This document shows, one piece after another, positions 9,224 through 49,916 of a stretch of 64,000 nt of DNA. The DNA is from Phascolarctobacterium sp. (lineage in GTDB: Bacteria > Bacillota > Negativicutes > Acidaminococcales > Acidaminococcaceae). Each line of letters begins with the position of its first letter. Within the stretch, counting starts at the first letter, position 1. The stretch is taken from positions 1 through 64,000 of the forward strand of contig JAGAPX010000026.1 in NCBI GenBank assembly GCA_017623055.1. The letters are read 5' to 3'. Position numbers and translations under genes: made by a program. The notes beneath the pieces are model-generated. The model was not told the DNA's origin and made no database searches. It was given only the letters and a program-made list of their open reading frames with translations.

Positions 9224-9308
9224 TTTCCTGATAAGAGAACCTGAAATTTTCACTCTCACAAATTTACTGCGACCTTGAAAGATAGGGCAGTAATGTTCTT
9301 GCAGGAGA
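9224..9308 (+). ncRNA. Conserved 5' leader RNA of TonB receptor gene 1
   Basis: The outer arms TTTCCTG (9224-9230) and CAGGAGA (9302-9308) can pair with one wobble. The inner hairpin TTACTGC (9264-9270) / GCAGTAA (9287-9293) encloses a GACC...GATAGG loop. The unpaired stretch CACTCTCACAAATTT lies just 5' of the inner hairpin. Related elements precede receptors at 25408 and 49830 (whole) and 44648 (inner hairpin only), with compensatory changes in the stems. No cobalamin-riboswitch box is recognisable. Confidence 0.65.
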
Positions 9309-9337
9309 TGTTGATAAATTTTTAGGAGATGAAGTAC

Positions 9338-11294: not shown

Positions 11295-12251
11295 TTGCGT
11301 TGCTTATTTTTGATAATTATTTTAATAACGTTTTTAACAGGCTGTGGTTTTGATAGAGATAATGCTAAGCATACTACTGCAAGAACTTATAGCGTTACCG
11401 ATGATTTAGGTAATGTATTACAGTTTGATAAGAAACCTACTAAAATATATGCTTCTACTCTTAGTCTTGAAGAAGTACTTGTAGACTTAGTGAGTCCTGA
11501 TAGAATAGTAGCTATTTCAGAGATGGCAACGGATGAGAAATTGTCGCTTATTTCTCAAAAAGCATTACTCGTAAATAAAAAAACACAAGGAAGAATTGGC
11601 GTTGAGGGAATTCTTTCCCTCAACCCTGACCTTGTTTTAATGCAGGATAATATGGATGCTACCATCATTAATTCTTTGAAAGATGTTGGCTTGAAGGTAT
11701 TCGTAAGTAATGTTCCTGTCACTGTTGAAATGATAGGTAAAAGAATCCTAAAAATTTCTCAGGCAGTGGGTGAAGAAGAGAAAGGTAAAAAACTTGTTGG
11801 TGAGATGTGGAGTAAGATTTTAAAATCTCAAGAGAAGCTTTCTTCTTTAACCGACAATGATAAAAAAATTATAATGGCTTATTCTCAACAAGGTGTTTTT
11901 GGAAGTGCTAAAGGCGTGTTTAACGATATTTGTAATAAGGCTTTAGTAAAAAATGGTGCAGCTATGGCTGGTCTTGTAAGAGGTGAGCATTTAAGCAAAG
12001 AAAAAATTATAGAATATAATCCAGACATATTTATTTTCCCAAGTTATGATACTGGAAAATATGGAAACTTAGATTTATTTATCCAAGAAGTTCTTAATGA
12101 CCCTGCATTAACTAATGTAAAGGCAATTAAGAATAACAATATAATGATTATAAAGGATAGATACCGTTCAACTACATCACATTATGTTGGTGATGCAATT
12201 CTTGAGATTTCCAAGAATGCATATCCACAGTATTTTGAGGAGAGTAACTGA
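11295..12251 (+). CDS. FecB/BtuF-type periplasmic binding lipoprotein 1
   Basis: A 318-aa class III substrate-binding protein for metal chelates. The N-terminus MRCLFLIIILITFLTGC is a lipoprotein signal with lipobox LTGC. The two lobes carry family wording: KIYASTLSLEEVLVDLV, VEGILSLNPDLVLMQ near 110, and a long linking helix near 150-190. It starts at TTG 11295 with AGGTGAT 6 bp upstream; no ATG is suitable. It follows receptor 1 by 13 bp and its stop overlaps the next gene (TGATG). It should hand the ligand to a BtuC/D-type transporter; the only permease of that type in the window is at 35687. Confidence 0.88.
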   Translation: MRCLFLIIILITFLTGCGFDRDNAKHTTARTYSVTDDLGNVLQFDKKPTKIYASTLSLEEVLVDLVSPDRIVAISEMATDEKLSLISQKALLVNKKTQGRIGVEGILSLNPDLVLMQDNMDATIINSLKDVGLKVFVSNVPVTVEMIGKRILKISQAVGEEEKGKKLVGEMWSKILKSQEKLSSLTDNDKKIIMAYSQQGVFGSAKGVFNDICNKALVKNGAAMAGLVRGEHLSKEKIIEYNPDIFIFPSYDTGKYGNLDLFIQEVLNDPALTNVKAIKNNNIMIIKDRYRSTTSHYVGDAILEISKNAYPQYFEESN

Positions 12252-13528
12252 TGATAAAAAAGACTAAACGGAAAAAAGTTATACACTGTAATTTAAGTGA
12301 AGTTTATACATCAGTGGCATTTAATCCAGATATAGTTGTTATTGTACATGCTCCCAAGTCATGTTCTCATATTATTTATAATGCTTGGTTGAATAGCAAA
12401 AGAAAAATGTTACTAAACTATAATGGTCAGGTTCCAGATGTTGAGGATAATTTATTTATTACAGGAATGACTGATAAAGAAGCTATTTTTGGCGGAGAAA
12501 AATTATTAGAGAACTGTATTGCAAATGTAGTTCAGTATAAGAATCCTAAATGCATAATTGTGGCTTCTGGATGTGCAGCTGCTGTAATTGGTGATGATGT
12601 ACAATCAGTATGTGACAAAGCAGAAGTTAAATATAATTTACCCATTATATTTATTCCTGGTTCTGGCTTCATGAGTGACCAAACAAAGGATGGTTCTCTT
12701 TTAACTACATCTTATCTTTATAAAAAATTTATAAAGAATAACCAACCAATAAAAGATGAGCAGTCTGTCGTGGTATTAGGTTTGAACAGATTGCAGTTAT
12801 TGCAATGGGAGCTTTTAGAATTAAAAAGAATATACGGATATTTTGGATACACAAATTTATTATTACCTCCAAGTGGGTTATCAGTAGAAGAGTTAACCAA
12901 CATAAGTAAAGCTTCATTGATTGGGACATATGCTCCAACTGTAGAAAAACTCAAAGAATATAACAAATTCAGTAATATGTTGTCCAAGGAATTATCAATA
13001 CCCACAATTAATAATCGTATTCCCTTATCGATTAAAGAAACTTATGAATATATAAATACTATGGGTGTATTACTTGACAAAGAAGATGTTGCTGAATCTG
13101 CAATTATAAATGAACAAAACTTGCTTAACAGTAATTTAGAAAAATACAAATCAATTTTTCAGGGAGAAAGGTGTACGATAGCACTTGGGCATCCTCTAAG
13201 ATTTATACAAATTGATGAATTGATTTTTATATTAAAGAGTGTTGGTTTCCATATAAAGGGACTTGTTTTGCTTAATGACCTTACTGATTCTGAGTTTAAT
13301 GAGTATAAAAATTATCTTGAGAAATCTGATTGTGGATTACAAATTTCACAAGAAAATGAATGGAATTATACAGAAGATGATGATATTTTTATAACTTCCA
13401 TTTTTAATGAGAAATTCAAAAGACAATTTTGTTTCAGACGAAAAAGAATTGGTATCGGTGGTATAAAAGTATTTTTAGAAAGGTTAAGCATTATAACTAC
13501 CAATAATAGGAGTCTTGGACATGAATGA
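12251..13528 (+). CDS. Nitrogenase component 1-like protein (NifD/NifE/BchN-type), second set
   Basis: The 425-aa protein has the three-cysteine pattern of nitrogenase-like component 1 subunits: C13 (IHCN), C38 (HAPKSCSH) and C108 (ASGCAAAVIGDD). The last matches the CxxGLIGDD motif that ligates the bridging Fe-S cluster. It is shorter than true NifD (about 480-520 aa), and no NifE/N/B genes are present, so dinitrogen reduction is unlikely. Relatives BchN/B, BchY/Z and CfbD reduce tetrapyrroles. It overlaps the binding-protein gene by 1 bp and the next gene by 8 bp. No NifH is in this operon; the one at 32252 could serve it (inference). Confidence 0.8.
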   Translation: MIKKTKRKKVIHCNLSEVYTSVAFNPDIVVIVHAPKSCSHIIYNAWLNSKRKMLLNYNGQVPDVEDNLFITGMTDKEAIFGGEKLLENCIANVVQYKNPKCIIVASGCAAAVIGDDVQSVCDKAEVKYNLPIIFIPGSGFMSDQTKDGSLLTTSYLYKKFIKNNQPIKDEQSVVVLGLNRLQLLQWELLELKRIYGYFGYTNLLLPPSGLSVEELTNISKASLIGTYAPTVEKLKEYNKFSNMLSKELSIPTINNRIPLSIKETYEYINTMGVLLDKEDVAESAIINEQNLLNSNLEKYKSIFQGERCTIALGHPLRFIQIDELIFILKSVGFHIKGLVLLNDLTDSEFNEYKNYLEKSDCGLQISQENEWNYTEDDDIFITSIFNEKFKRQFCFRRKRIGIGGIKVFLERLSIITTNNRSLGHE

Positions 13529-14798
13529 TTTAGAAAAATTTAAACCTTGTACCGGCTATTGTCAGATGATTGGTGCTGCAACAGCATTGTTGAGCATCAA
13601 AAGCAGTTTGGTAATATTCAATAGTCCAAGATGGTGTGCCTTAACAGCAGAACGTGAACTTGCTTGTATAAATAAAGATTATGAGAGAAAGGTTTTTTGT
13701 ACTGAAGCAAGAGAGAATGATATTTTGTATGGCATAGAAAAGTCGTTACGAGAAACCATTAAAGAAGCAATAGACATAGAAGGTACACCAACGCTTTTAA
13801 ATGTTATTACCAGTTGTTCGATGAGTTTAATTGGTGACGATATTAAAGGTGTATGCGTAAGTGAAACTAACTGTAATAATGTGATAACATTGGATGCTGG
13901 AGGATTTACTGGAACGTTTGAATCTGGATATCAGCTGGCAATGATAGCGTTGTTGAAAAATATAAATTCCAAAGTTAGAGAACAAAAATCTTTAAAAGTA
14001 AATCTTTTAGGTGTTTGCACTAGTTACCCCAATTGGAAAGGTAATTTAGAAGAATTAAAAAGATTATTAAGATTAGCTGGTATTGAGGTTAATGTTGCTC
14101 TAGGTGCAGATAATACTGATTTTGCTGAATTAGAAAAAATTGTGGAAGCAGAATTAAATGTGGTGCTTGTTCCTGAATTAAGCTTGAATATTGCTAATTA
14201 TTTATATGAAAGTTTAGGACAAAGGTACATTGTTGCAACCATGCCCTTTGGCTTTAAAGATAGTATTAAATGGTTAAATGATATCAGTTCTGAATTAGGG
14301 GTTATATCAAACCTAAAAGAAATTGAAAATGAGATAGAGCAATTAGAAAGAGATATAATTGATGAATCATATTCAATGCGTAATTTCTTTTCTGATTTTA
14401 ATTTATTACAAGTAGCATCATCTTTACCAGAGTCATTAACAATATCCATTTTTAAAGCAATGAATAATTCAGGGGTAGACCTGTTAAAATGTAATGCGTG
14501 TTACTGTAACAAAAAAGATGTTATTGAACAGACATCATCTAACGAATCCTTCCCATTAAAACAATTAACGGAAATAAAAGGATTGGATGGAAAAGGTTAT
14601 CAGTTGCTTTTAGGCACGGAAAAAGAAAGAATGAGGTTTAAGGATTTCACAAGAACTTTATATTTAAATTTTTCTATGCCAATGGAAAAAATTAAGTGTG
14701 AAAATGATTGTTATGTTGGCGTAAGAGGTTGGTCTAATTTTGTAAGAAATATTTTTAGCCAAATTAAAACTTTGGAATATATTAACAAAAGCCTATGA
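13521..14798 (+). CDS. Nitrogenase component 1-like partner (NifK/BchB-type), second set
   Basis: The 425-aa partner subunit has candidate cluster ligands C10 or C14 (KPCTGYCQ), C39 (NSPRWCAL) and the cysteine of ITSCSMSLIGDD near residue 97. I start at ATG 13521, with ATAGGAG 8 bp upstream. Overlaps of 8 bp upstream and 4 bp downstream imply tight coupling and equal stoichiometry, as expected for a heterodimer or alpha2-beta2 complex. The body shows the alternating Rossmann-like pattern of the family (KVNLLGVCTSYPNW). The electron acceptor is unknown; a tetrapyrrole fits the gene context. Confidence 0.8.
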   Translation: MNDLEKFKPCTGYCQMIGAATALLSIKSSLVIFNSPRWCALTAERELACINKDYERKVFCTEARENDILYGIEKSLRETIKEAIDIEGTPTLLNVITSCSMSLIGDDIKGVCVSETNCNNVITLDAGGFTGTFESGYQLAMIALLKNINSKVREQKSLKVNLLGVCTSYPNWKGNLEELKRLLRLAGIEVNVALGADNTDFAELEKIVEAELNVVLVPELSLNIANYLYESLGQRYIVATMPFGFKDSIKWLNDISSELGVISNLKEIENEIEQLERDIIDESYSMRNFFSDFNLLQVASSLPESLTISIFKAMNNSGVDLLKCNACYCNKKDVIEQTSSNESFPLKQLTEIKGLDGKGYQLLLGTEKERMRFKDFTRTLYLNFSMPMEKIKCENDCYVGVRGWSNFVRNIFSQIKTLEYINKSL

Positions 14799-18472: not shown

Positions 18473-18505
18473 CTGTCATTGAAATTATTAAATGGTGGTG
18501 TTTTT

Positions 18506-20157
18506 ATGAAGTGGAATGGTAGGAAGGCTTTCCTAATTTTGGCAGTTTTTAGCTGTAGCTTTTTAAATAGTCAACAAAATGTTTATGCAGAAGAAAAATT
18601 ACAAGAATTTGTTTTAGATCCAATGGTAGTAACTGCTCAAGGCTTTGCTACTAAGGATTTAGAAACTCCTGCGTTGGTAGAAGTTTTCAATGAAAAAGAA
18701 ATTGAAGATAGTGGTGCCAATAATGCTTACGATGTTTTGCAAGATACTTTAGGTGTTACTGCTTCTTCCTATGGTTTTAATGGAACTAACCAAGGAACTA
18801 TGACTTCTAAAATTATGGTGCGTGGAGTGCAGGACGGAACTTTAGTTTTGGTAGATGGCATTCCCATGAATATGGATGGGCGTTATAATCTTGACGATAT
18901 TCCTAGTGATGCTATCGAGCGTATTGAAGTTGTTAAAGGTGGAGGTTCCGTTTTGTACGGAAGTGAAGCGACTGGCGGCGTGATTAATATTATCACTAAA
19001 AAGCAGTTGCGAAATAAAATTAAGGTTGCGACTGGCAACTATGGTAAAGAGCGTTACGATATCAGTATTGGCTCAGGTAAGTTTAATTTGCTTGCTGGCT
19101 TGGAAAATCGTGGGGAAGCAAAAAATTTAAAAGGTCTTGGCTACAACAAGGCTCCTGAAAAAGAAAGTGTTTATGATTATGGCAAGGGAGAACGTCAAAG
19201 TATACGTTGGAACTATTTGTTGAGCGAGGGTTTGACTTTTACACATAGTTATTCTGAAAATGAAAATAGATATTTGAAACGTAAGTATCTTAGTCATACC
19301 TATAATCAGATGAATGATTATAAGAATACGGATAACAGCTTTTTGCTTGACTATGATAAAGATGGGTGGAAGGCGTATATTTCTTATGGTACTCAAGAAA
19401 AGGATAACGACCAAACAAATATCAAGAGTGGTGTAAGAGAACTGATAAATAATTACAACTGGCGCAAGGGGCATAATACCAATATGAAATTGCAAAAGCA
19501 GGTAAATCTTTTAAGCTGCCGACGATGACACAAATTTATGGTAGCGGAGCTTTGCAACCAGCGTTGGACTTGAAGCCAGAAGAGGGAACTCATTATGAAA
19601 TTGGCTACAAGCTAAACGCAGAAAAGAGTGCTTGGCGTTTGGCAATCTTCAATTACGAAGTAAAGGATTCTGTGGAAGCAGTAAAGAATGAAGATGAGAG
19701 TCAAGGTTACGATTATTTTAATAAGGATATTCGTAACACAGGGGTTGAGATTTCCGTAACGCTTGCACACGACAATAAATGGACTAGCCGTTGGGGCGTG
19801 ACTTATCATAATCCGCAAGTAAGGGATGATAACCCCGATGGTTATGCAGATAATGCTTGGCACGATTACGGAAGCAGGTATCAAATTAATGGCTCACTTA
19901 GTTATGTAGATGCTAAGTTCAGCAGTACCTTGAAGGCTAATTTTGTGGGTGACAGAACTTCTGACACCAAGGAGCAACGTCATATTAAACCACAATTATT
20001 TACGGACTGGCATTTTTCTTATCAGCCTCAGGCAAATCATAAAGTCTTTTTGCATATCAACAACATCTTGGACAGAAGAGATATCGTTTCCACAGGGAAC
20101 AGCAATTACTATAATTTAGGACGTAACTTTATGTTAGGGTATGAGTATTTGTTTTAG
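18506..20157 (+). pseudogene. TonB-dependent receptor with an out-of-frame internal deletion
   Basis: The N-terminal part (ATG 18506, SD GGTGGTG) has a signal peptide, TonB-box-like EFVLDPMVVTAQ and a full plug (IERIEVVKGGGSVLYGSEATGGVINIITKK), then stops at 19526-19528. The barrel continues in another frame (open before 19490, through GKSFKLPTM, to the terminal F at 20157). Alignment by eye with receptor 1 indicates that about 100 residues between the NWRKGHNTN segment and GKSFKLPT are missing, with a frameshift at the join near 19485-19500. The product cannot form a barrel. The promoter is intact, suggesting recent loss. Confidence 0.87.
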
Positions 20158-22652: not shown

Positions 22653-22683
22653 TTGACAATATACTGGGTATATACTTTACAGT
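22653..22683 (+). promoter_or_regulatory. MerR-type promoter P3 (19-bp spacer)
   Basis: TTGACA (22653-22658), 19 bp with ATATACTGGGTATATAC, TACAGT (22678-22683). No protein gene follows before the terminator at 23083. Confidence 0.75.
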
Positions 22684-22689
22684 ATGATT

Positions 22690-23130
22690 AAGGAACAAAT
22701 CAATATTTCGCATAAGAAGTTTTGGGTTAGTAGGATAAAGAAGTTCTAAACATCACAACACCTTTTACCGAAAACAACAATGCTTTTTACCTAGCGTTAG
22801 CTACCTGTTAATGGCGGAAGATGTTAAAGCTGCAAGTTTTGTTTATGTGAGAGTGGCAGAATTTCAGTGGAAATATTTTAGATGTGCGTTTCATGCTTGC
22901 CGGAACAAGCATCTGCTTTCCAAAGTAACAGGGCGAAATATTGGTTTCCCCTCCAAAATGAGAACAAGCAAACTGGACACTTGCTTCGCATAGAATTAAT
23001 GCTGTTCTGATAAAAAATAATCTTATATTTTCTCCTTCACCTCTCTCTCAAAGTGCATTCTGTAGGGGTGCAGTAATGCCGAAATAAGATGCGTGTTACC
23101 TGCCATTGGTAATAGGCATCTTATTTTTTG
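22690..23130 (+). ncRNA. Candidate structured non-coding RNA of about 440 nt
   Basis: It is bounded by promoter P3 and a strong terminator and has no credible ORF. Paired elements include CCTGTTA (22804-22810) / TAACAGG (22926-22932); ATGCTTG-CCGGAA-CAAGCAT (22892-22911); a three-way-junction-like unit with AGAACA/TGTTCT outside and AGCAA/TTGCT plus GCAT/ATGC inside (22970-23008); and GCATTCTGTA-GGGG-TGCAGTAATGC near 23055-23079. The 5' end (AATATTTC..ATAAGA) and 3' part (CTTCACCTCTC..GCAGTAATG) resemble the receptor leaders, as if a leader carried an insertion of more than 300 nt. Confidence 0.6.
23083..23130 (+). terminator. Strong terminator of the non-coding RNA
   Basis: AATAAGATGC (23083-23092) / GCATCTTATT (23116-23125), inner TTACC/GGTAA, then T5 and G. 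Confidence 0.92.
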
Positions 23131-23221: not shown

Positions 23222-24307
23222 ATGTCTGAACACATTTGCACCCTTTCTACAGGTGATAAGGTTTATTTTTACGATAAAAGCATAGTGATTTTCTTTAATG
23301 GCAAGCGTAAAGTGTTGAGCACTTCCGTTTATAATGGTGGCTACCACGAAGATTACGTTGCAGTTTATAATTACGATGCTAAGCAAGGCTCAGGTATGCC
23401 ATGCGAAGTTTTGGCAGATACTTACGTTGAACATATGCGTTTAATTTCCAAACGTCTTGCTCTAAATCCAGATATGGTTACTGGAATGGGAACGGCGGCG
23501 AGCATGGAGAATGCTGTCGTTGAAAAAATGAACTATAAAGATTTGACCATAACTGCCATTGTGACTGGTGGTATTGAAACGAATGGTGGTCGTGTTGGTG
23601 ATCCTTCCGATTATTACAAACCTTTAGAGCGCTTAGATAAATGCGGAACAATAAACATAATGCTCGTTTTGGACTGTGATATGCCAGCAGGAGCATTAGC
23701 ACGCGCTCTCGTTACTTGTACGGAAGCAAAGACAGCTGCTATTCAAGAACTGCTTGCTGGAAGCAATTATTCCAATGGCTTAGCCACAGGCAGCGGTACA
23801 GACCAGACAATTATTGTTGCCAATCCAGAAAGAGATTTGTATTTTGAAACAACGGGTAAACATTCTAAACTTGGTGAAATGATTGGCAAGGTTGTCATCA
23901 AAGCAGTGAAGCGCGCTTTAGAAAAACAAGCTGGCTTAAATGCAGAATTTCAGCATAACGTATTCCGTCGTTTAAAACGCTTTGGTATTTTGCCGGGAAC
24001 AATGTGGGGAGAATACCAAGAAGCTACCAATGCAGAAGTAAAGCCTGTCTACCTCCTCGCTGCGGAAAATCTGGCGAAAGACAAAATGATGCTAACATTT
24101 ACTTCCTTATATATACATCTGCTTGACCAATTTTTATGGCAACTTATTAACGCAGAAGAAATGCAGATAGCTGGGCAAAACTTGCTTGATACAATTGCTT
24201 CCTATTATAATGTAGAAAGTGAGCAGATTCTGGAAGCAAACCTTGAGGGAATGTTAGCAAGCTGGAAAGCTTTGTTCAATAAAATTATCGCTGTAAAAAG
24301 TGAATAA
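23222..24307 (+). CDS. cbiZ: CbiZ-type adenosylcobinamide amidohydrolase
   Basis: The 361-aa protein has the CbiZ core: VTGGIETNGGRVGDP near residue 125, TINIMLVLDCDMPAGALARALVTCTEAKTAA near 155-185, and GLATGSGTDQTIIVA near 205. CbiZ cleaves the nucleotide loop of adenosylcobinamide derivatives so that salvaged corrinoids can be rebuilt with the cell's own lower ligand. It is longer than minimal CbiZ (about 220-240 aa), with about 85 extra N-terminal and 130 C-terminal residues. ATG 23222 has AAGGAG 6 bp upstream. It has its own MerR-type promoter. Confidence 0.85.
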   Translation: MSEHICTLSTGDKVYFYDKSIVIFFNGKRKVLSTSVYNGGYHEDYVAVYNYDAKQGSGMPCEVLADTYVEHMRLISKRLALNPDMVTGMGTAASMENAVVEKMNYKDLTITAIVTGGIETNGGRVGDPSDYYKPLERLDKCGTINIMLVLDCDMPAGALARALVTCTEAKTAAIQELLAGSNYSNGLATGSGTDQTIIVANPERDLYFETTGKHSKLGEMIGKVVIKAVKRALEKQAGLNAEFQHNVFRRLKRFGILPGTMWGEYQEATNAEVKPVYLLAAENLAKDKMMLTFTSLYIHLLDQFLWQLINAEEMQIAGQNLLDTIASYYNVESEQILEANLEGMLASWKALFNKIIAVKSE

Positions 24308-25407: not shown

Positions 25408-25504
25408 GAACATTCTGGTTAAGCCAAAACTTCACTCTCACAAATTTTGCTGCGGCCATGAAAGACTGGGCAGTAACTTCAAGTTCACTTGATTGGTTAT
25501 GTTC
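25408..25504 (+). ncRNA. Conserved 5' leader RNA of TonB receptor gene 2
   Basis: The outer helix GAACAT (25408-25413) / ATGTTC (25499-25504) continues as AGCCAA (25422-25427) / TTGGTT (25493-25498) after an 8-nt bulge. The motif ACTTCACTCTCACAAATTTT is followed by the inner hairpin TTGCTGC (25447-25453) / GCAGTAA (25470-25476). The outer stem sequence differs from leaders 1 and 4, yet pairing is kept. Confidence 0.7.
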
Positions 25505-25530: not shown

Positions 25531-27480
25531 ATGAAAAAGATGACTAAAGCAATGCTTATGACTGCTCTTATTTGTGGCACAATGTATTGCGGTGCAGAAC
25601 CTGTTCATGCAAATGAACTGCAAGAGTTTACCCTTGACGAGTATGTAGTAACAGCTGCGAGAACAGAAACTAAATTAGTAGATACCCCTGCGAATATTAG
25701 CGTGGTAACTGCTGAACAAATTGAAAGCAGACATTATACTAACGTTGCGGAAGCATTGAAAGATGTACCAGGTGCAAATGTTTTGGATACTGGTAATGGT
25801 TCTTATGAAAAACCTATATTATTAAATGGTGATGAACGTGTATTAGTATTGGTTGATGGTAGAAGAGTTAATTTTGATATAGGAACTATGTCTGGCAGAG
25901 CTGGTTATGATTTAAACCAATTACCTGATGTGGGACTTATCGAACGCATTGAAGTATTAAAAGGTGCTGGTGGTGCACTTTATGGTTCTGATGCTGTTGG
26001 CGGTGTAATTAACGTTATTACTAAAAAGGCTGATAGAAGTTACGGGAAAGTTTCTGTAGGTATTGGTTCTAATGGTACTAAAGACTATAATGTTTTATAC
26101 TCTATTAAACAAGATGGTACTGGAATAAACTTATCTGCATCTAAGTATAAACAAGATTATTACAAATATAGACATTATGAATCAGATACAACAAAGCGTT
26201 GGCCTTATGATGTAGATATGGACAACGAAAAGGTTTCTCTTAGCCTTACACAAGAATTGAACGATGATAGTAATATCACAGTTGGTTATGATTATAGTAA
26301 TTCAGAAGGACTTGGTACTTCTCAAATGAAGTATTCTTCTCAAAGAATAGAAAAGCGTACTGATAACTTTTATGCTAAATATGATTGGACTTTGAATAAA
26401 AAGGATCAAGGCTATTTGCAATTTTATCATAATGAGTTAGATTATTATTTCTCTGGTGGTATGGAAGAGAAAACTAATGGCATAGATGCTCAACAAGCTA
26501 TTACAATTGCTGATAATAATAAGCTTATAGTTGGTGCTTCTTGGCGTGAAGCAAAAGCTTTTAATGAGTATTATTATCAACAAGAAGAAAAAATAGAAAA
26601 TTTAGCTTTGTTTGTTAATGACATCTGGGAATTTGCACCCACATGGTCTTTAAACGCAGGAGCACGTTATGACAATCATAGTGAAGCTGGAAATGAAACT
26701 ACATTTAGTGCAGGCTTAAATAAAAAAATTAGCGATAATAGTCATGCATATATTAATTGGGGACAAGTATTTAAAGCTCCCAATACTGATGATTTGTTTT
26801 ATTATGCACCTGGTGGTTCCTATGAATATAATGGAGTAACCTATTATTATGGACCGTCTTTGGGTAACAAAGATTTAAAACCTGAAACTGGTGAAACATG
26901 GTCTGTTGGGTATACTTCTCTGATTTCCGATAAAACTAATATTGGTATCAATTATTTTGAAAGTGATTTGGTTGATGCGATAGATTGGGTTAGTGGAATC
27001 GGTGCAGAACCAACTTATGTTCGCAATGTAGATGAACAAAAGAAAAAAGGATTTGAAATGAGTGTTAGTCATAAATTGAATGACACTTTAGATTTAGAAG
27101 CATCTTATACCTATATAAAAGTAGAAAATAATGATGCAGGTGCAGGGTTTGAAAGAGATTGGAATTATATTCCCAATTTGTACAGAATTGGTGCTCGCTA
27201 TCATGATGGTAAATGGAATGCTGATTTATTCTTGCGTTATGGTGCAGGTGGTTCTACTGGTACACATGGTGGCAAACAATCTTATGTAGAAAGTGATTAT
27301 ATGACTATAGATTTGGCGGTTACTTATCAAGCAGCAAAAAATATTAAAGTGTTTGCAAAAGGTTATAACTTGCTTAATGAGGCATATTGTGAACAAGCTG
27401 GATATATTAGCGATTTAGGTTCTTATAATTGTCCCGCACAAGCTCGTCGTTTCTTGATTGGTGCTGAATACTCCTTCTAA
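25531..27480 (+). CDS. TonB-dependent outer-membrane receptor 2
   Basis: A 649-aa receptor with a signal peptide (KAMLMTALI core, cleavage near residue 28), TonB-box-like EFTLDEYVVTAARTE, a plug with ERVLVLVDGRRVN and IERIEVLKGAGGALYGSDAVGGVINVITKK, and a barrel ending in F. The plug wording is closer to BtuB/FepA/colicin-receptor types than the other receptors here. It is a single-gene unit with its own MerR-type promoter, leader RNA and downstream hairpin. The ligand is unknown. ATG 25531 follows TAGGAG. Confidence 0.93.
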   Translation: MKKMTKAMLMTALICGTMYCGAEPVHANELQEFTLDEYVVTAARTETKLVDTPANISVVTAEQIESRHYTNVAEALKDVPGANVLDTGNGSYEKPILLNGDERVLVLVDGRRVNFDIGTMSGRAGYDLNQLPDVGLIERIEVLKGAGGALYGSDAVGGVINVITKKADRSYGKVSVGIGSNGTKDYNVLYSIKQDGTGINLSASKYKQDYYKYRHYESDTTKRWPYDVDMDNEKVSLSLTQELNDDSNITVGYDYSNSEGLGTSQMKYSSQRIEKRTDNFYAKYDWTLNKKDQGYLQFYHNELDYYFSGGMEEKTNGIDAQQAITIADNNKLIVGASWREAKAFNEYYYQQEEKIENLALFVNDIWEFAPTWSLNAGARYDNHSEAGNETTFSAGLNKKISDNSHAYINWGQVFKAPNTDDLFYYAPGGSYEYNGVTYYYGPSLGNKDLKPETGETWSVGYTSLISDKTNIGINYFESDLVDAIDWVSGIGAEPTYVRNVDEQKKKGFEMSVSHKLNDTLDLEASYTYIKVENNDAGAGFERDWNYIPNLYRIGARYHDGKWNADLFLRYGAGGSTGTHGGKQSYVESDYMTIDLAVTYQAAKNIKVFAKGYNLLNEAYCEQAGYISDLGSYNCPAQARRFLIGAEYSF

Positions 27481-31255: not shown

Positions 31256-31292
31256 ACAGTCCCAAAGCGTAATCGCTTTGGGACTGTTTTAT
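31256..31292. terminator. Bidirectional terminator between the nitrilase and merR-like genes
   Basis: A 14-bp perfect stem ACAGTCCCAAAGCG / CGCTTTGGGACTGT (31256-31269, 31274-31287) with loop TAAT has T-runs on both strands. Confidence 0.95.
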
Positions 31293-32134
31293 TTTTTCTT
31301 TACGTTAAGGAAAATTTTATTAATATATTCGTCCGTATCTTTATAGAACAAATGGTTTTCAATGGTAAGTATGTAAATATCACCACTGGCTTCTAATTCG
31401 TTTAGCTCCATAAATTTGTTGATTATATCTACAAGCTTAGGAAAGTTTTTATAGAAGGTTCCCTTAAAATAAATTTCCAGATATAATCCAGCAGGAATTT
31501 TTATCATGGACTTTGCTTTATGTTTAGGCGTGTTCAGAACGAAAGAGAAGTAAGCTTTTGTAGGATGGTAGTCTCGTTTTACAAACAAGTCTTCTTGGGA
31601 GATTATCCAGCCAACATGACGCTCTAAAGATTTTTTATTATGGAAAGTATGTTGGGCATGTTTCGTAAATAAAACTATTCTATCTTTGCCAGAGTCTTTG
31701 CTATAAACGGGAGTAACTTTCATCAAGCGTTCTTCTTGGAATGTAAGTAAGGGCTTGAAAAAAACGAAAGGTCTCTCGCATTTTGCAATGTCGTTGATAG
31801 CTTCTAAAGATTTTATGATTGCTTGGTTTTCTTTGATGATAGCCATACATTCTTTTTCTTTGCGTGCCACCAAGTCGATAAAATCATTTTTACTACGTTT
31901 TTCAAGATAAGTTTTTATATCCGGTATGCTGATATTGAAGGAGCGCAGATTAACAATGATCTCCAAATCTAAATATTGTTGGATTGAATAATGCCTATAG
32001 CCTTTTTCGCAAATAAAATCAGGTGAGAGTAGGCCTATTTTGTCATAATACAACAAGGTTTGTTTAGAGATTCCAAAAAGATTTGCGAGTTCTCCTGCTG
32101 TGAAATAGGCATCGTCAGAATTATTGTTGCTCAT
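31289..32134 (-). CDS. MerR-family transcriptional regulator, likely activator of the window's 19-bp-spacer promoters
   Basis: A 281-aa protein with an N-terminal MerR winged helix (residues about 10-78: FTAGELANLFGISKQTLLYYDKIGLL, then GYRHYSIQQYLDL), a dimerisation coiled coil (about 85-115) and a C-terminal effector-binding domain of the BmrR/GyrI-like size class (about 120-281). It lacks the short Cys-rich metal-loop tail of MerR, CueR or ZntR, so an organic ligand is more likely than a bare metal ion. It is divergent from the perfect operator at 32155-32175, whose edge is about 20 bp from its start codon, so it probably represses or autoregulates itself. Start ATG 32134 has AGGTGA upstream. 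Confidence 0.9.
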   Translation of the reverse strand: MSNNNSDDAYFTAGELANLFGISKQTLLYYDKIGLLSPDFICEKGYRHYSIQQYLDLEIIVNLRSFNISIPDIKTYLEKRSKNDFIDLVARKEKECMAIIKENQAIIKSLEAINDIAKCERPFVFFKPLLTFQEERLMKVTPVYSKDSGKDRIVLFTKHAQHTFHNKKSLERHVGWIISQEDLFVKRDYHPTKAYFSFVLNTPKHKAKSMIKIPAGLYLEIYFKGTFYKNFPKLVDIINKFMELNELEASGDIYILTIENHLFYKDTDEYINKIFLNVKKK

Positions 32135-32182: not shown

Positions 32183-32251
32183 TAAAAATAAATCTATGTA
32201 GGACATTATATCATATTCAAATATGTATTGCAAAATGTTAGGAGGATTTTT

Positions 32252-33058
32252 ATGAAAAAGATTGCTATATATGGTAAGGGTGGAATTGGTAAATCTACAA
32301 CAACGGCAAATGTGTCTGCTGCATTGAGCGAAAATGGCTTGAAGGTTTGTCAAATTGGTTGCGACCCCAAAAATGATTCCACACGTCTGTTGCTGGGAAG
32401 AATTTGTACCCAAACAGTTTTAGATGTTGTGCGTGATAAAGAAGAAGTTTTAGCGGAAGATATTGTGCATATTGGTTACAACGGAATTAAGTGCGTGGAA
32501 GCTGGCGGACCTGAACCGGGAGTTGGTTGTGCAGGACGTGGTATTATCGTTGCCTTGGAAAAACTCCGTTCTTTAGACGTCATTGAAGACGAAGATGTTT
32601 TGCTTTACGATGTTTTAGGTGACGTAGTATGTGGCGGTTTTGCTGTACCAATTCGTGAAGGCTACGCTACTGATATTTACATTGTTTCTTCTGGTGAGCT
32701 GATGAGTCTTTACGCTGCCAACAATATTGCCAAAGGCGTGAAACGTTTTGCTTTACGTGGAGGTGTTCGTTTAGGCGGAATCATTGGTAACAGCCGTAAT
32801 ACTCCCAACGAAAAGAATTTGTTGGAAGAATTTGCCAAACGTTTAAATACAAAACTGATTGCCTTTATTCCTCGTGATGTTGTTGTGAATAAGGCGGAGA
32901 ATAATCGCCAAACTGTTTTGCAATATGCACCAGAAAGTGAGCAGGCGCAAATCTATCGCAATTTGAGCAAGGTGCTTGTTGAAAATGCAGAGCTTACTGT
33001 GCCTACGCCAATGACCTTTGAAGAATTAGAAAAGCTGGTTGAAAAATATGGGAATTAA
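32252..33058 (+). CDS. NifH/BchL/CfbC-like ATP-dependent reductase iron protein
   Basis: A 268-aa homodimeric Fe-protein-like ATPase. Walker A GKGGIGKST is at residues 8-16, CDPKNDST near 37 and the cluster ligands are C93 (GVGCAGRG) and C127 (DVVCGGFAVP). It would use ATP hydrolysis to push electrons from a ferredoxin to a component 1 partner. TTAGGAGG precedes ATG 32252. It overlaps the next gene by 11 bp. It is the only NifH-like gene in the window, whereas there are two component 1 pairs. Confidence 0.93.
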   Translation: MKKIAIYGKGGIGKSTTTANVSAALSENGLKVCQIGCDPKNDSTRLLLGRICTQTVLDVVRDKEEVLAEDIVHIGYNGIKCVEAGGPEPGVGCAGRGIIVALEKLRSLDVIEDEDVLLYDVLGDVVCGGFAVPIREGYATDIYIVSSGELMSLYAANNIAKGVKRFALRGGVRLGGIIGNSRNTPNEKNLLEEFAKRLNTKLIAFIPRDVVVNKAENNRQTVLQYAPESEQAQIYRNLSKVLVENAELTVPTPMTFEELEKLVEKYGN

Positions 33059-34340
33059 AACTAAACGCTTTATCAATATCAGAAAAAGTTGTAGCTGCAG
33101 TATGCCCGGTGTATGGCGAGCAGTTGCTTATATGGATGGTGTGGTCGTGATTTTCCATAGCCCTCGTGCGTGCGCACATATTGCTCGTACAATGGATATC
33201 AATACTCATTATCGTGCTATGGGTGATGGTAGAAAAGAAGAACGTGCTTCCGTACCATTGTTGTCTAGTCAATTGGAAGAAAAACATTCCATTTTTGGTG
33301 GTATAGATAGATTAAAGAAGTGTATTGCTTACGCTATAGAAAAGTACGATCCCAAATGCTTGGTGTTAGGTGGTTCCTGCGTTGCCGGTGTAATTGGTGA
33401 CGATGTGGAAGCTGTAGCTAAAGAAGTTGAAGAAGAATATAATTTGCCAGTCATTACGGTGGATAGCTACGGATTTTTAGATGGTGAATTTTTTGAAGGC
33501 TACTTTGAAATTACTTATAAATTGATTGATAGATATTTATATCCGCAGGAGCATATTCCTAAAACAGTGGTGCTGATTGGGGATAATGGTGGACCGTGGG
33601 GACATTACGCTACTGAGGTTACAAGAATTTTAAAAGCAATGGGTGTTACTGTTATTGGTCAGTTCCCCGGTTATATTACCCTTGCAGATTTACCCAAGAT
33701 TACCAGTGCAGAAGCAATGGTCGTTTTAGGTGGTAAGGGGAATACTCACGAAGGTCTCGAGTGCTTGACAAAACGTTTGCAGGAAAAATTTGGCTTTAAA
33801 TTTTTGCAGGACGTTTATCCTGTTGGCTGGGAAAGAACTCAGCAATGGATTGTAGAGATGGGTAAGCTGTTAAATTGTGAAGAAAAGGCTGAAGAAGTTT
33901 TGCAAGCAGAACGCCTTCTTATGGAGAAAAGCTTGGCACAATTTTTGTCGGTGACCAAAAGTAAAAAGGCTACTCTTTGCATTGGCAGATGGTTAATGTA
34001 CTTCCATCCAGAGTCCATGCTAGGTGTAATTAATGCCTTAGAGTTAGATTTGCAGGGAATAGTTTTGCTTGATGCTTTGGAAGCAGGCTATTTTGACGAA
34101 ATGGTGGGCGCATTGCGCAAATATACCGATGTTCCTATTTATTCTAATCTTGACGGTGAACGCTTGCTGAAAGAAGCAGATGTGGTACTGACAACGCACG
34201 AGCTGCAGGACAAAAACTTGAAGCAGGTTTTCTTGCCTATGCTTCCTAAAGTGGGAACCCTTGGAGAAATTGAATTTATGCAAGTCATTTATAGAGTGCT
34301 GTGTAGTAAGCACAAGGGCGGAGGTTTAGTTTATGTATAG
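33048..34340 (+). CDS. Nitrogenase component 1-like protein (NifD/BchN-type), first set
   Basis: The 430-aa protein has cluster-ligand candidates C15 or C17 (KSCSCSMPG), C42 (HSPRACAH) and C111 (GGSCVAGVIGDD). An alternative TTG at 33039 adds three residues but has no better SD. It resembles the 12251 protein in layout (HxPxxC; SCxAxVIGDD), so the two sets are paralogous. Length is that of BchN/CfbD-class enzymes rather than NifD. It overlaps nifH-like and nifK-like genes by 11 and 8 bp. Confidence 0.85.
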   Translation: MGIKTKRFINIRKSCSCSMPGVWRAVAYMDGVVVIFHSPRACAHIARTMDINTHYRAMGDGRKEERASVPLLSSQLEEKHSIFGGIDRLKKCIAYAIEKYDPKCLVLGGSCVAGVIGDDVEAVAKEVEEEYNLPVITVDSYGFLDGEFFEGYFEITYKLIDRYLYPQEHIPKTVVLIGDNGGPWGHYATEVTRILKAMGVTVIGQFPGYITLADLPKITSAEAMVVLGGKGNTHEGLECLTKRLQEKFGFKFLQDVYPVGWERTQQWIVEMGKLLNCEEKAEEVLQAERLLMEKSLAQFLSVTKSKKATLCIGRWLMYFHPESMLGVINALELDLQGIVLLDALEAGYFDEMVGALRKYTDVPIYSNLDGERLLKEADVVLTTHELQDKNLKQVFLPMLPKVGTLGEIEFMQVIYRVLCSKHKGGGLVYV

Positions 34341-35631
34341 CAATAACCAATGGGGAAATATTTGTCATAGAGTTGACTGCTGTGCATTAAGTGGAGCTGC
34401 AGCCTTTGTGGCAGGTATTCCCGATGCTGAAATCTTGGTAAACGGTCCGTTGTGGTGTTACTTTTACGCATTACGTACTTTGGAACACGCAAAATACGAT
34501 ATGGGAGAACGTTTTCACGATTGTCAGCCCGATAATAATGCAATTGTCTATGGAACGGAAAAGTTTTTGACGGAAGCTTTGAAGCGTTTGCTGGATAGTG
34601 GTCGTAAGCCTGCACTCTTATTGGTAGAAAACAGCTGCTCACTTAGCTTAATTGGTGATGATTTGGCAGGCATCGTTCGAAAAATGGAACTGCCTTATCC
34701 CTTTGTAACCCTGGATTGCGGTGGTTTGGTTGGTGGCTTTGCTGAAGGTTATACTAAGGCGGCACTTGCTGTTTTAAAAAAATTTGCTGATGAAAAAGTT
34801 GAACCATTAGAGAACAATGTAAATCTTTTAGGCTTAAGTGATTTCTACTACAACGGTGTTGCTGATAGAAATGAAATAATTCGCTTGCTTACCAAGGCTG
34901 GTTACAAAATAAATGCTGTTCCCGGTGCGGGAAGCAGTCTGGAAGATGTACAGGAGATTGCTCGTGCTAAGCTAAACATTGTCTGCAACGAAGAGCTTGG
35001 CTTGCAATTGGCACAGTGTTTGGAAAAACGCTTTGCCACTCCCTATGTCGTGGTAGGTATGCCTTACGGAATTGAGGGTACTAAAAATTGGTTAACACGT
35101 ATTCACGAAGCACTGCCTTGTGAAAATTTACAAGCAGTCTTTGATGAAGGCACTGCTCAAATGGAACGCTTAACTGCTAAAGAAAATGACTATCGTGGTG
35201 TGTGGGGAAGCCTTTGGTTTGACAAGGTTATTCTTTCGGCAGCGGGTACTCAAGCTTTGTGTATGGCGCAGGCTTTACGTAACGAGTGGTTAGATATGGG
35301 AGAACTTACCGTAATTTGTCAACACGAGGTCAAAAGTGCAGACTACTGCGAGGTGGCAGATAAAGTTCTGGTTACTGGCAAGGATGCTGATGAAATTGAA
35401 AAGCTTTTCCAAAATGCAGAAGACGTTTTGCTTTTGGCGAGCAGCAGTGAAACTAGCAATTTACGCCGTCGCGGAGTACGCTTTTACAGCTGTAACATTG
35501 CCTATCCGTCAGCTGACGAAGTTTTACTGACGGAAACTCCCTTTGTGGGAATCAAGGGTGCGGCGCACTTGCTAGAGCGTTTGTGGAATGTATATGTTAA
35601 AAAACAAATGGATGAGCAGGTGGATAAATGA
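34333..35631 (+). CDS. Nitrogenase component 1-like partner (NifK/BchB-type), first set
   Basis: The 432-aa partner has C11/C16/C17 (NICHRVDCC), C42 (NGPLWCYF) and C102 (ENSCSLSLIGDD). It resembles the 13521 protein (xxPxWC; SCSxSLIGDD). With the upstream gene it should form the catalytic heterotetramer that accepts electrons from the NifH-like protein. The substrate is unknown; the downstream CobN/ChlI/ChlD-like genes favour a tetrapyrrole. Its stop overlaps the start of a 20-codon ORF (ATGA). Confidence 0.85.
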   Translation: MYSNNQWGNICHRVDCCALSGAAAFVAGIPDAEILVNGPLWCYFYALRTLEHAKYDMGERFHDCQPDNNAIVYGTEKFLTEALKRLLDSGRKPALLLVENSCSLSLIGDDLAGIVRKMELPYPFVTLDCGGLVGGFAEGYTKAALAVLKKFADEKVEPLENNVNLLGLSDFYYNGVADRNEIIRLLTKAGYKINAVPGAGSSLEDVQEIARAKLNIVCNEELGLQLAQCLEKRFATPYVVVGMPYGIEGTKNWLTRIHEALPCENLQAVFDEGTAQMERLTAKENDYRGVWGSLWFDKVILSAAGTQALCMAQALRNEWLDMGELTVICQHEVKSADYCEVADKVLVTGKDADEIEKLFQNAEDVLLLASSSETSNLRRRGVRFYSCNIAYPSADEVLLTETPFVGIKGAAHLLERLWNVYVKKQMDEQVDK

Positions 35632-35690
35632 AAAGACTGTGGCTAATCTGCTTGGTTTACCCGGAATATTTTAGAGGTGAGAAATCTTGA
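35628..35690 (+). CDS. Candidate 20-aa ORF coupling nifK-like and permease genes
   Basis: ATG 35628 overlaps the preceding TGA (ATGA); its own TGA (35688-35690) overlaps the permease's TTG start (TTGA). The peptide (MKRLWLICLVYPEYFRGEKS) is hydrophobic in its first half. Overlaps at both ends suggest that it keeps ribosomes moving to the permease start. Whether the peptide itself functions is unknown. Confidence 0.4.
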   Translation: MKRLWLICLVYPEYFRGEKS

Positions 35691-36724
35691 TTATAAAAAG
35701 AAGAAACAGTGGGATTGCTTTAACATTCTTGCTGTTAACTTTAGTTATTGTTGCTTTAGGCTCACTAACCTTTGGGCAAATTGATGTGCCAATGGAAAAC
35801 ACTCTAGCAATTATTTGTGGAAAGTTAGGCTTACCTTTATTAAATGAAGGAAACTTTACCAAGGAACAGCTTGCTGTTATTTGGTTTATTCGTATGCCTC
35901 GTATGTTGGTTGGCTTACTTGTTGGTGCAACTCTCGGGATTTCTGGCGCAGTAATGCAGGGCATTTTTAGTAATCCCTTGGCAGACCCTGGTCTTATTGG
36001 TGTTTCTGCAGGGGCGGCGACTGGTGCAGTACTTTCTATTGCGCTGGGCAGTGCAACTAGTAGTATGTACACTATGCCAGCTTTTGCATTTTGCGGAAGT
36101 ATTTGCGCCGTATGTTTGACAGTTTTCCTTGCTATGCGTAATGGCAAGATTCCTGTAATGACCTTGCTGCTTGCCGGTGTTGCCGTAGGTATGCTTTTAG
36201 GCGCAGTAACTTCTGGCTTACTTACCTTTATGAACGAACAAAAGCTACAGCAATATTTATTCTGGATGGTAGGCGGCCTTGACTATCGCCGTTGGGAACA
36301 TGTTTATCTTGCGGTTGGCCCTGTTCTGACAGGTATTTTCATTATGCTTTTGATGGCTCGTCATTTAAATATCTTAGTGCTTGGAGAAACGGAAGCTAAG
36401 GCTGTAGGTATGCCTGTTACTGCTTTTCGCATGGGATTACTTTTCGTATCTGCTATGACAACGGCAACTTCTGTTTGCGTTAGCGGTAGCATTGGTTTTG
36501 TAGGTTTAGTAATTCCACATATGATGCGAATGCTACTTGGTCCAGATCATCGAGTGTTGTTGCCGGCAAGTGCTCTTGGCGGTGCTATGTTTTTAGTTTT
36601 GTGCGACACTTTGGGCAGAATAGTTATCCCTCCCTCCGAAGTTAGGGTAGGTATAATGACTGCGCTTTTGGGCACGCCCTATTTCTTATATTTGCTTAGA
36701 AGAATGCAAAAACAATTCTTCTAG
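35687..36724 (+). CDS. BtuC/FecCD-type ABC transporter permease
   Basis: A 345-aa, roughly ten-helix permease of the FecCD family: RMPRMLVGLLVGATLGISGAVMQGIFSNPLADPGLIGVSAGAATG (about residues 65-110) and GFVGLVIPHMMRMLLGPDHR near 270 are diagnostic. It begins at TTG 35687 with GAGGTGAG 8 bp upstream. It imports vitamin B12, haem or a siderophore with an ATPase and binding protein; the likely ATPase is far away at 47798. It is the only FecCD permease in the window for five FecB-type binding proteins. Confidence 0.93.
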   Translation: MIIKRRNSGIALTFLLLTLVIVALGSLTFGQIDVPMENTLAIICGKLGLPLLNEGNFTKEQLAVIWFIRMPRMLVGLLVGATLGISGAVMQGIFSNPLADPGLIGVSAGAATGAVLSIALGSATSSMYTMPAFAFCGSICAVCLTVFLAMRNGKIPVMTLLLAGVAVGMLLGAVTSGLLTFMNEQKLQQYLFWMVGGLDYRRWEHVYLAVGPVLTGIFIMLLMARHLNILVLGETEAKAVGMPVTAFRMGLLFVSAMTTATSVCVSGSIGFVGLVIPHMMRMLLGPDHRVLLPASALGGAMFLVLCDTLGRIVIPPSEVRVGIMTALLGTPYFLYLLRRMQKQFF

Positions 36725-36737
36725 AATTGAGGTAAAA

Positions 36738-39700
36738 ATGAGTAAGATTTTATTTTTGACAAACGTTATCCGCCGTATGGGAATGATGCAGCAAACTGTG
36801 GAACGTCTACAACGTGAACAAAAGGTTAGTAATGATTGCGCTTGCCATTGGATAACTGATAAAACTGTATGGGATAAAAAATGGGAAGAAACCCTGCGTA
36901 CTACGGACGTAGTCCTTTTGAAATGGATGGGCAGTGGTTTGGACACACCTTTCCTGAAAAAACTGGTACAGTTTTTAGATGCACGCAAGATTCCTTATTA
37001 TATAGATGCTGCCGGTACAAACGAGGGCGAGCTTAAATTTGGCTTTACCTCTGAACAGCTGGCAACCTTAAAAAAATATACTTCTTTTGGTGGTGAGCGT
37101 AACTACTATAATTTGTGGCAGTACCTTGACCAATGCTTGGAAGGCAACGACAAAGAGATTGAAGCACCTGACCCGATTCATTGGTGTGGAATTTATCACT
37201 CCCGTGCGAAAAAGGTTTATACAGATTTAGCAGAATACCAAGCAGATTTCTGTGATGCTTCTAAACCTACTATTGGTATGCTTTTTTATCGTGATGAATG
37301 GGTTTGGGGAGATTTAACTTACCAAAGCGCAACCATCGAAGAAATTGAAGCTCAAGGCATGAACGCAATTTGTGTATTCAGTAATGGTATGCCCATTGAA
37401 GAAATGGGCATGCCCAGTTTGACTAAAGTTTTTGACGGCTTCTTCTGTAAAGATGGAGTGCCTGCTATTGACGCACTTATCAATGTAATGAAATTTTCTT
37501 TGAGCAGTAGTGGTACCATTACCGTAGACTATTTCAAAAAATGGAACGTTCCTATTTTGGCAGGCTACACTATTATGACTGACTACGAGGAATGGAAGGA
37601 AAGCTTCGAGGGTATGAATGCCATGGAAGTTTCCATTGCCATTTCCCTGCCAGAATTTGACGGAACCATTCACGGTGTACCCATTGGTTACAAAAAAGTT
37701 TTGGAAAATGGTGATGTGCGTTACCTGCCTATAATGGAACGTGTTCAACGAATGGTAAGCAAGGCTCGTAAATGGGCAAGCTTGCGTCGTAAGGCTAATG
37801 CAGATAGAAAAATTGCCATTATCTTCCATAATTATCCTCCTCGTAATTCCAATATTGGTAGTGCTCTTGGTTTAGATACCATTGAAAGCATCCGTCGTGT
37901 ATTGGTTGCAATGAAAGAACGTGGCTATAAAGTAGATAGTGTTCCAGAGGATACCAAGGAATTTATCAAGGAACTTACAGCCAATGCTACTAACGACAAG
38001 GCTTTACTGACGGAAAAGCAAATTGCTGAAGCACAAAAGATTACTGGTGCTGAATATAAAAAATTCTTTGCTACCTTTGACCCCAAGGTGCAAGCACAGC
38101 TTATTAAAGATTGGGGCGAAGCACCGGGAAACGTTATGGAATATGACGGTGACCTGCTTGTTCCGGGTACTATGAACGGAAATGTTTTTGTTACGGTGCA
38201 ACCTCCTCGTGGTTTTGGTGATGACCCCAGTAAAATTTACCATTCCCCTTATTGCGCACCCACTCATCATTATTTAGGCTTCTATCGTTGGGTGCGTGAT
38301 ATTTGGCAAGCAGATGCTGTTGCTCATATTGGTACTCATGGTTCCTTAGAATGGTTACCTGGCAAAAACGCAGGCCTTGACTGCACCTGTTATCCTGATT
38401 TGGCATTGGGAGATTTGGTTAATATTTATCCCTATAATATTACGATTACTGGTGAGGGTATTCAGGCAAAACGTAGGGGTGCTGCCTGCCTAATTGAACA
38501 TTTGCCTGCTCCTCAAAGTAAGGCAGATGTCTATGACGAGCTGGAAGAACTGGAAAAAATTATGGATGAGTATGTGCATTTTGAAACTACTCAGCCTGAA
38601 AACCTGCCTAGCTTAGAAGCACTTGTTAAAGAAAAGGTTGCTGCTGCCAATTTACAGGACGAAGTTGAGTATGACGAAAGCAAGCCTTTCGGCGAATATG
38701 TAATGGCGTTGCACAACTACATTACAGATTTAAAGAACCTTGAGGTGCATGTTGGCTTACATATTTTAGGACAACCTCCTGTTGAGGAAGGTTTAACTGA
38801 GTATTTGTGGATGCTTACCCGCTTGAACAATGGTGATGTTCCAAGTTTGACGCAGGCTATAGCACAGTACTATGGCTTTGATTATTACTATTTACTGGAA
38901 AACAGCAGCTTGATTTATGAACCGCTGAATATTACCTACGCAGTTTTGCTTGATAAGATTACAGATCAGAGCCAAGAGATTATTAAAATTTTGCAGGAGA
39001 AAGATTTTACCGCAGAAGCATTGCAAGACATTTGGAAATTGGCTTGGGTACAGGAAGGCAGTGCAGAATTTAAAGAACAGCTGGAAAAAGTTTGTACCTA
39101 TATTTGTGAGACAATCTATCCTAATTTACAGCTTACCACCCAAGAACAAGATAATATGCTCCGTGGCTTTGAAGGACAGTATGTAGAGCCTGGTCCTTCC
39201 GGCGCTCCGACTAGCGGTTGTGCAGATTTACTGCCTACTGGTCGTAACTTCTATGGCGTTGACCCGCGCACCTTGCCAACTCCTGCAGCGTGGGAAATTG
39301 GTAAAACCTTGGGTGACCAAGTTATTGAACGCTTTATTGCGGAGGAAGGTCACTATCCTGAAAACATTGGTATTGTACTGTGGAGTGGTGCCAATATGCG
39401 TAGTCACGGTCAATGCGTGGCAGAATTCCTTTACCTGATGGGCGTGCGCCCAATTTACCAAGCAGGCAGTATGCGTATTAATGGCTTGGAACCTATTCCT
39501 TTAACAGAACTACGTCGTCCCCGAATTGACGTTACTGCAAGAATAAGTGGTTTGTTCCGTGATACTATGCCTACCATCATGGAACTACTTGACCAAGCAA
39601 CTCTGCTTGTTGGTGGTTTGGACGAAGATTTGGAACTGAACTATGTGCGTAAGCATTTACTGGCAGATAGTGCAGAACTGGAAGCAGAGGGTATGAGCAA

Positions 39701-42524: not shown

Positions 42525-42540
42525 AAGGGGCAGATGAATT

Positions 42541-49829: not shown

Positions 49830-49916
49830 TTTCCTGATAAGAAATCATAAAAACTTCACTCTCACAAATTTTACTACAACCTTTCAAGATTAGGCGGTAG
49901 TGTTCTTAGCAGGAAA
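49830..49916 (+). ncRNA. Conserved 5' leader RNA of TonB receptor gene 4
   Basis: The outer helix TTTCCTG-A-TAAGAA (49830-49843) / TTCTTA-G-CAGGAAA (49903-49916) pairs 13 of 14 positions. ACTTCACTCTCACAAATTTT precedes the inner hairpin ACTAC (49873-49877) / GTAGT (49897-49901), a compensated change from ACTGC/GCAGT in leader 1. Confidence 0.72.

Follow-up and report, generated by a model that had tools for sequence, protein, structure and literature searches.

A probable trans-acting small RNA, most likely descended from a vitamin B12 sensor, in Phascolarctobacterium and related gut bacteria

Riboswitches have mostly been described as switches of the mRNA that carries them, and to our knowledge few that act in trans are known. 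The closest stand-alone AdoCbl riboswitch RNAs described are EutX of Enterococcus faecalis and Rli55 of Listeria monocytogenes which consist of an AdoCbl aptamer, a terminator stabilised by B12 and then a trans-acting part (PMC5821096), and which sequester the ANTAR protein EutV. SreA, the product of a Listeria SAM riboswitch, acts on the leader of prfA (PMC8383071). The sRNAs OmrA and OmrB act on btuB of E. coli, the mRNA of a TonB-dependent B12 receptor (PMC11162775).

The RNA reported here can be set beside each of these. Its riboswitch-bearing relatives have the same plan as EutX and Rli55; those two RNAs titrate a protein, however, whereas pairing with mRNA leaders is what the evidence suggests here, and the copy under study has no aptamer. 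Like SreA it would be a riboswitch-derived RNA acting on the leader of another mRNA. SreA is the terminated product of a cis-riboswitch and arises when its ligand is plentiful, whereas the present RNA would form when AdoCbl is scarce and, unlike SreA, does not lie upstream of a gene that it could control in cis. The predicted likeness to OmrA and OmrB is that of an sRNA whose target is the mRNA of a B12 receptor of the TonB-dependent kind, but OmrA does not derive from a riboswitch, and its effect on btuB is repression. The AdoCbl and cobalamin riboswitch families (RF01482 and RF00174) are matched by the 5' part of the relatives; the copy under study matches neither, and the RNA differs from both families in that it ends in a terminator of its own and has no gene downstream to act on in cis. 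In this family of gut bacteria there appears to be, mostly in single copy, a B12-gated RNA whose predicted targets are genes of B12 uptake and use, and three copies without an aptamer provide a natural experiment, in that the part conserved after decay of the aptamer would be the trans-acting part.

The stretch of DNA analysed, referred to here as the window, comprises 64,000 nucleotides of a Phascolarctobacterium genome of 1.72 Mb (G000). By gene content it is a cobalt/corrinoid locus, in which periplasmic binding proteins are also present. Its main genes are:

12251 and 13515: nitrogenase-like proteins
23222–24307: CbiZ
48673–49677: CbiK
56925–57800: CbiQ
60931–62079: CbiD
start at 9329 (or 9338), 25531–27480 and 49947–51902: TonB receptors
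18479–20157: split TonB receptor

No tRNA or tmRNA was found in the window, and no phage record similar to its DNA.

A sequence-only reading had marked 22653–23130 as a promoter and a strong terminator enclosing strong helices and a three-way-junction-like unit, with no credible ORF, and on all of these points our analysis agrees with it. A likeness of the two ends of the RNA to the receptor leaders, also remarked on in that reading, was judged by eye; the link between RNA and leaders is one of complementarity, through the loop at 22847–22855. The parts of the RNA are as follows:

22653–22683, + strand: promoter-like site of MerR type, TTGACA - 19 nt - TACAGT
22693–23129, + strand: non-coding RNA, its start being an estimate based on the promoter and on the conserved motif AAATCAATATTTC at the 5' side (22697)
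22697–22710, + strand: 5' strand of the long-range helix P0 (AAATCAATATTTCG), with 96.7% of cells paired and two pairs changed on both sides
22711–22834, + strand: degenerate remnant of an AdoCbl riboswitch aptamer, the B12-box motifs of the relatives being absent
22835–22863, + strand: P13 hairpin with the conserved loop TTTATGTGAGAGTGG; the stem covaries (5/7 pairs) and the loop is kept
22847–22855, + strand: seed GTGAGAGTG, the complement of CACTCTCAC in predicted target leaders
22880–22916, + strand: remnant of the riboswitch terminator hairpin T1, its T-run lost in the window copy
22934–22947, + strand: 3' strand of P0 (CGAAATATTGGTTT)
22961–23008, + strand: three-way-junction unit, also kept in several related RNAs
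23030–23049, + strand: pyrimidine-rich stretch, the tract being broken by an A in the window copy
23082–23129, + strand: intrinsic terminator with a strong hairpin

Promoter and terminator are separated by about 435 nt in which no reading frame is conserved: no ORF of at least 80 aa is found inside 22653–23130, one listed ORF only begins at 23159, and no frame is kept in relatives. The RNA folds at -116.7 kcal/mol, compared with -99.1 (sd 6.0) for 100 dinucleotide shuffles, none of which was as good (z -2.95). In the three-way junction AGAACA (22961–22966) closes on TGTTCT (23003–23008), with two inner hairpins. It is possible that the pyrimidine-rich stretch serves as a second, anti-Shine-Dalgarno pairing region. 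No Rfam family reached its gathering score in the region of the window RNA, and at E <= 10 there were four chance-level matches only, the best being a microRNA model on the terminator hairpin (E 0.23).

Comparison with relatives, which the sequence-only reading had proposed, found the same RNA conserved there. By DNA search it is present in 4/4 genomes of the genus, and within the family, represented by 59 genomes of Phascolarctobacterium and relatives, a search with the copy of genome G003 gave matches in 38 at E <= 0.01, some of them only terminator- or aptamer-sized. A covariance model of the RNA's middle part (R1), built from 19 sequences with the three aptamer-less copies left out, gives the window copy a score of 54.1 bits. 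Run against 63 genomes of the order, it detects 39 places with E <= 5.2e-7, spread over 38 genomes that all belong to this one family; each has a single place apart from G001, which has two, and there are five weaker matches besides (E 2.4e-4 to 0.006). At E <= 0.01 the model found none in four genomes of other families of the order, a number too small for exclusion. A search of 84,980 species for the exact motif TTTATGTGAGAGTGGC gave 43 stretches, and the scattered ones outside Phascolarctobacterium are probably due to chance. The genes on either side of the RNA change from genus to genus, and the one that follows often runs on the opposite strand, so the RNA is no leader of a downstream gene; as a stand-alone RNA it resembles EutX and Rli55 in having a terminator of its own and no cis-controlled gene. 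A description of it was not found in the open-licence literature; most subscription journals lie outside this, so the result is no proof that the RNA is unpublished. One carrier is a named strain, Phascolarctobacterium faecium DSM 14760, in which a NiCo riboswitch is found close to the locus of the sRNA (L030, 166–256), opposite to another gene which we take to resemble, at its start, a cation-diffusion transporter.

Analysis of these homologues proved informative as to the origin of the RNA. Eight of the 20 homologous loci match the AdoCbl or cobalamin models at the Rfam cut-off (RF01482 at L014, L015, L016, L018 and L020; RF00174 at L030, L033 and L039), and the aptamer core motifs (GGYG.AA.TCC and a box like TCCCGYCRCYGT) are seen in 17/20 aligned RNAs. 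On the 3' side of the aptamer come the P13 hairpin, the terminator-like hairpin T1 with a T-rich tract and the 3' strand of P0, the long-range helix formed with the 5' end of the RNA; beyond P0 are found the three-way junction in several genera, the pyrimidine-rich stretch and the final terminator, the length of this 3' part being variable. Helices P0, P13 and T1 are supported by covariation: together they have 90.2% of cells paired, against 83.7% in shuffles and 37-53% when slid, and 49 cells changed on both sides against 17.1 in shuffles. Neither figure was reached in any of 500 shuffles; the number of further pair types was not unusual (128/500). Because most homologues open with an AdoCbl aptamer and terminator, the ancestral RNA is taken to have been a B12-gated stand-alone transcript. 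The aptamer core and the T-run of T1 are gone in three copies, those of the window, of G002 (L009) and of G001 (L010), and at E <= 10 no cobalamin model matched any of the three. G003 has the riboswitch version only and G001 has both versions. The window copy retains the loop and the 3' part. Judged by this comparison, the window RNA most likely descends from a vitamin B12 sensor RNA whose sensor part has been lost.

The P13 hairpin loop, GUGAGAGUG, is conserved in 19/20 aligned RNAs. The GTGAGAGTG within it is identical in the same proportion, G026 having GTGAGAATG; it persists where aptamer and terminator have decayed, and it is missing from all 18 cis cobalamin-riboswitch regions taken from relatives. 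The loop is predicted to be at least partly open in most folds, the exceptions being G033, G056 and partly G026, and in the predicted folds the RNA has the conserved, exposed seed of a trans-acting base-pairing sRNA. All seven sites of CACTCTCACAAA in the genus lie in leaders of TonB receptors. In the window the sites are:

9251–9260, + strand: CACTCTCACA, leader of the receptor starting at 9329/9338
25433–25442, + strand: CACTCTCACA, leader of the receptor at 25531–27480
49857–49866, + strand: CACTCTCACA, leader of the receptor at 49947–51902

Among 52 gene-start regions of the window these three leaders pair best with the loop, at -17.4 kcal/mol each, the next reaching -14.0, and none of 2000 shuffled loops attains the summed energy with the three. 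When all 15-nt segments along the sRNA were scanned, those covering the loop fitted the three leaders best. The leaders are homologous, and their sites are therefore not three independent events.

Sites of CACTCTCAC were also counted in seven genomes, one per genus. There are 48, of which six are the sRNA itself and were set aside, and a site was scored if a Shine-Dalgarno-like motif and the start of an ORF of at least 80 aa followed within 120 nt downstream, in sense. Upstream of a start lie 18 of the remaining 42, compared with 1/22 for the dinucleotide-identical control CTCACACTC, which is one permutation only (Fisher p 0.0009). Two of the 18 are doubtful (one is followed by a 114-aa ORF at 115 nt, the other by a start inside a longer frame), and their removal gives 16/42 (p 0.003). 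With the mutase and receptor groups counted once each the figure is 10/34 (p 0.02), or 8/34 (p 0.06) when the doubtful two are also removed. Complementary sites thus occur in leaders beyond chance, as is expected of the targets of an sRNA, and this is weaker when orthologues are counted once. The pattern read backwards is not a valid control because CACTCTCAC reads the same in reverse, and ACACTCTCAC, tried as a control, shares the 9-mer, and its sites include the mutase leaders and the leader of a PduO-type adenosyltransferase. In genus g2, whose genomes are without a strong sRNA match, CACTCTCACA has five sites in nine genomes, none of them before a Shine-Dalgarno motif and start. A perfect hairpin elsewhere in the window genome, AACACTCTCACTTTTTAAAAAGTGAGAGTGTT (L187/L193, G000:C11:84881-84908), contains both the seed and its complement; it is probably a terminator and contributes two of the 42 counted sites.

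The leader of methylmalonyl-CoA mutase bears the site (CACTCTCACC) in 10/11 genomes examined, from seven genera, and the stem of the hairpin that follows it varies between genera, the site itself being constant. Further sites lie approximately 28-44 nt before the starts of several genes, and those with a site before the start are:

g6, g9 and g14: ABC substrate-binding proteins of one family
G035: PduO-type cobalamin adenosyltransferase
g17: phosphonate-type binding protein, HU-like protein and enoyl-CoA hydratase
g14: sugar-binding protein
g18: SLH/porin-like protein

Some observations speak against pairing. In G026 the loop is changed yet the targets are not; P. faecium (G031) has the sRNA, but CACTCTCACA is absent outside it, the 9-mer alone being present in the mutase leader and elsewhere; and G016 carries the sRNA, but its mutase leader is not among the site-bearing places. 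A second contact, between the sRNA loop YGGACA and a GUCCA loop of the mutase leader, is not claimed, since GUCCA is also found where the sRNA is without that hairpin (g6 and g17). In G043 the CACTCTCAC site lies between a cobalamin riboswitch and the gene for the small subunit of methylmalonyl-CoA mutase (L241, G043:C21:56300-57800), that is, the gene of a B12-using enzyme stands behind a B12 riboswitch.

On this evidence we believe that the window element is probably a trans-acting, base-pairing small RNA of the vitamin B12 regulon. It would appear to be a real, conserved and riboswitch-derived RNA with a well-supported seed, and regulation of B12-receptor and B12-enzyme mRNAs is what its complementarity predicts.

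Other explanations have to be considered alongside this one. Protein titration is the mode of the closest known stand-alone AdoCbl riboswitch RNAs (PMC5821096), and the 3' part contains conserved hairpins that would be unneeded for pairing. The RNA and the leaders might then be linked through a regulatory protein in the manner of EutX and Rli55, with no RNA-RNA pairing. This seems unlikely to us, as the conserved sites in the RNA and in the leaders are complementary and not alike, and as the loop is still kept in some genera that lack the three-way junction. The same complementarity divides the first suggestion of the sequence-only reading, a regulatory RNA of the regulon that might act as a decoy: a regulatory RNA it would be, but hardly a decoy, since it complements the receptor and B12-enzyme leaders and does not mimic them. 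The second suggestion, a functionless leader remaining after loss of its receptor gene, draws on the promoter being of the same type as those of the receptor leaders. We give it next to no probability, because the RNA is stand-alone across the family and is conserved with covarying helices in many genera. The intact receptor ORF which that suggestion envisaged at this locus in close relatives is also absent from the one syntenic relative seen, G002, where the order is ATPase, RNA, CbiZ, with no receptor ORF. What was lost is, to judge from the alignment, the riboswitch aptamer and terminator, not a receptor.

Cobalamin riboswitches have an L5-L13 contact, and in most copies the AGTGGC in the loop is able to pair with a GCCGCT in the aptamer. 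The loop could therefore have been conserved just as a kissing loop of the riboswitch, with CACTCTCAC in the leaders being coincidental or meant for another regulator. It is quite improbable, however, that this is all the loop does, when its aptamer partner has been lost from three copies in the genus with the loop identical, when the cis riboswitch regions lack GTGAGAGTG and when the placement of the sites is non-random. A slender chance only can be given to the idea that the main seed is the pyrimidine-rich 3' stretch, covering Shine-Dalgarno sequences, and not the loop. A script found a tract of at least 12 nt with CTCC, CCTC or CCTT in the 3' half of 15/20 aligned RNAs, but five of the 20, the window copy among them, are without such a tract, the loop is better conserved, and it is at the loop that the receptor leaders pair best.

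If the base-pairing sRNA is accepted, the question arises of how its synthesis is governed in a strain without the aptamer. The promoter of the window RNA has a 19-bp spacer, whereas riboswitch-bearing relatives have one of 17 bp, and the longer spacer is found in all three aptamer-less copies as opposed to the riboswitch copies. The features concerned are:

9170, 18442, 22653, 23159, 25361, 28924, 30007, 32152, 44602, 49774 and 52929, + strand: motifs with the 19-bp spacer
31289–32134, - strand: MerR-family regulator gene, proposed controller of these promoters

This motif, centred on TATATA and with promoter spacing, was counted without a shuffle control at those 11 places on the + strand and at one on the - strand, and a looser pattern gave 12 against 9.9 expected, which is not above chance. 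The closest relatives of the MerR gene, in G002 (97%) and G001 (78%), share their contigs with the sRNA that has no aptamer. A spacer of 19-20 bp, as in MerR-controlled promoters, is common to the promoters near a MerR gene, and we infer that the MerR-family regulator controls the sRNA and the other promoters of this type. With strict filters RF00174 has no match in G000, two to six in sister genomes, and is above cut-off in 46 of the 59 family genomes. The G000 lineage may have swapped riboswitch control for a MerR-type regulator throughout.

In the relatives AdoCbl would favour the terminator, and under AdoCbl shortage RNA polymerase would read through and finish the sRNA; such gating is suggested by the usual action of these riboswitches and by the analogy with EutX. 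In the window strain switching would instead fall to the promoter, with the MerR-family regulator turning on the sRNA. The loop, once free, would then pair with CACTCTCAC, which lies close to the 5' end of the target mRNAs. In the receptor leaders the predicted effect of the site is to mask the ribosome-binding site, and pairing of the sRNA would open it, which is the reason for supposing that pairing raises receptor synthesis, a supposition to which we give about even odds. In the consensus fold of seven receptor leaders the site is base-paired to the Shine-Dalgarno region GAGATGAAGT, in a helix that hardly varies and has no covariation. For the segments taken alone the duplex energies are unremarkable, with 10-13 of 31 background starts doing as well, and in single-sequence folds of the three receptor leaders the site is open in one, intermediate in one and mostly closed in one. 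On balance activation is the better guess for the receptors; the mutase may instead be repressed, as a way of sparing B12. General auto-inhibition, in which every CACTCTCAC site would mask its own ribosome-binding site, was tested and is unsupported, and masking is retained for the receptors alone because the seven-leader consensus fold predicts it. More tentatively, and with rather more doubt than confidence, it may be proposed that a riboswitch-born sRNA runs the B12 regulon, that the loop of its expression platform doubles as the seed, so that AdoCbl would control both completion of the sRNA and freedom of the seed, and that the window lineage swapped aptamer and terminator for a MerR-type promoter with seed and targets kept.

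Two features of the surrounding locus may be added. The split receptor at 18479–20157 consists of two overlapping ORFs, of 349 aa on the plug side and 210 aa on the C-terminal side, with the middle of the protein unaccounted for, and is likely to be broken or partly deleted; it has a promoter motif at 18442 but is without the seed site. At 12251–14798 and 32228–44463 there are nitrogenase-like reductase proteins (PF00148) together with a magnesium-chelatase-like AAA/VWA protein. These genes adjoin CbiK, CbiQ and CbiD and have the promoter motif in common with them, and they possibly form a pathway for the modification of corrinoids or other tetrapyrroles.
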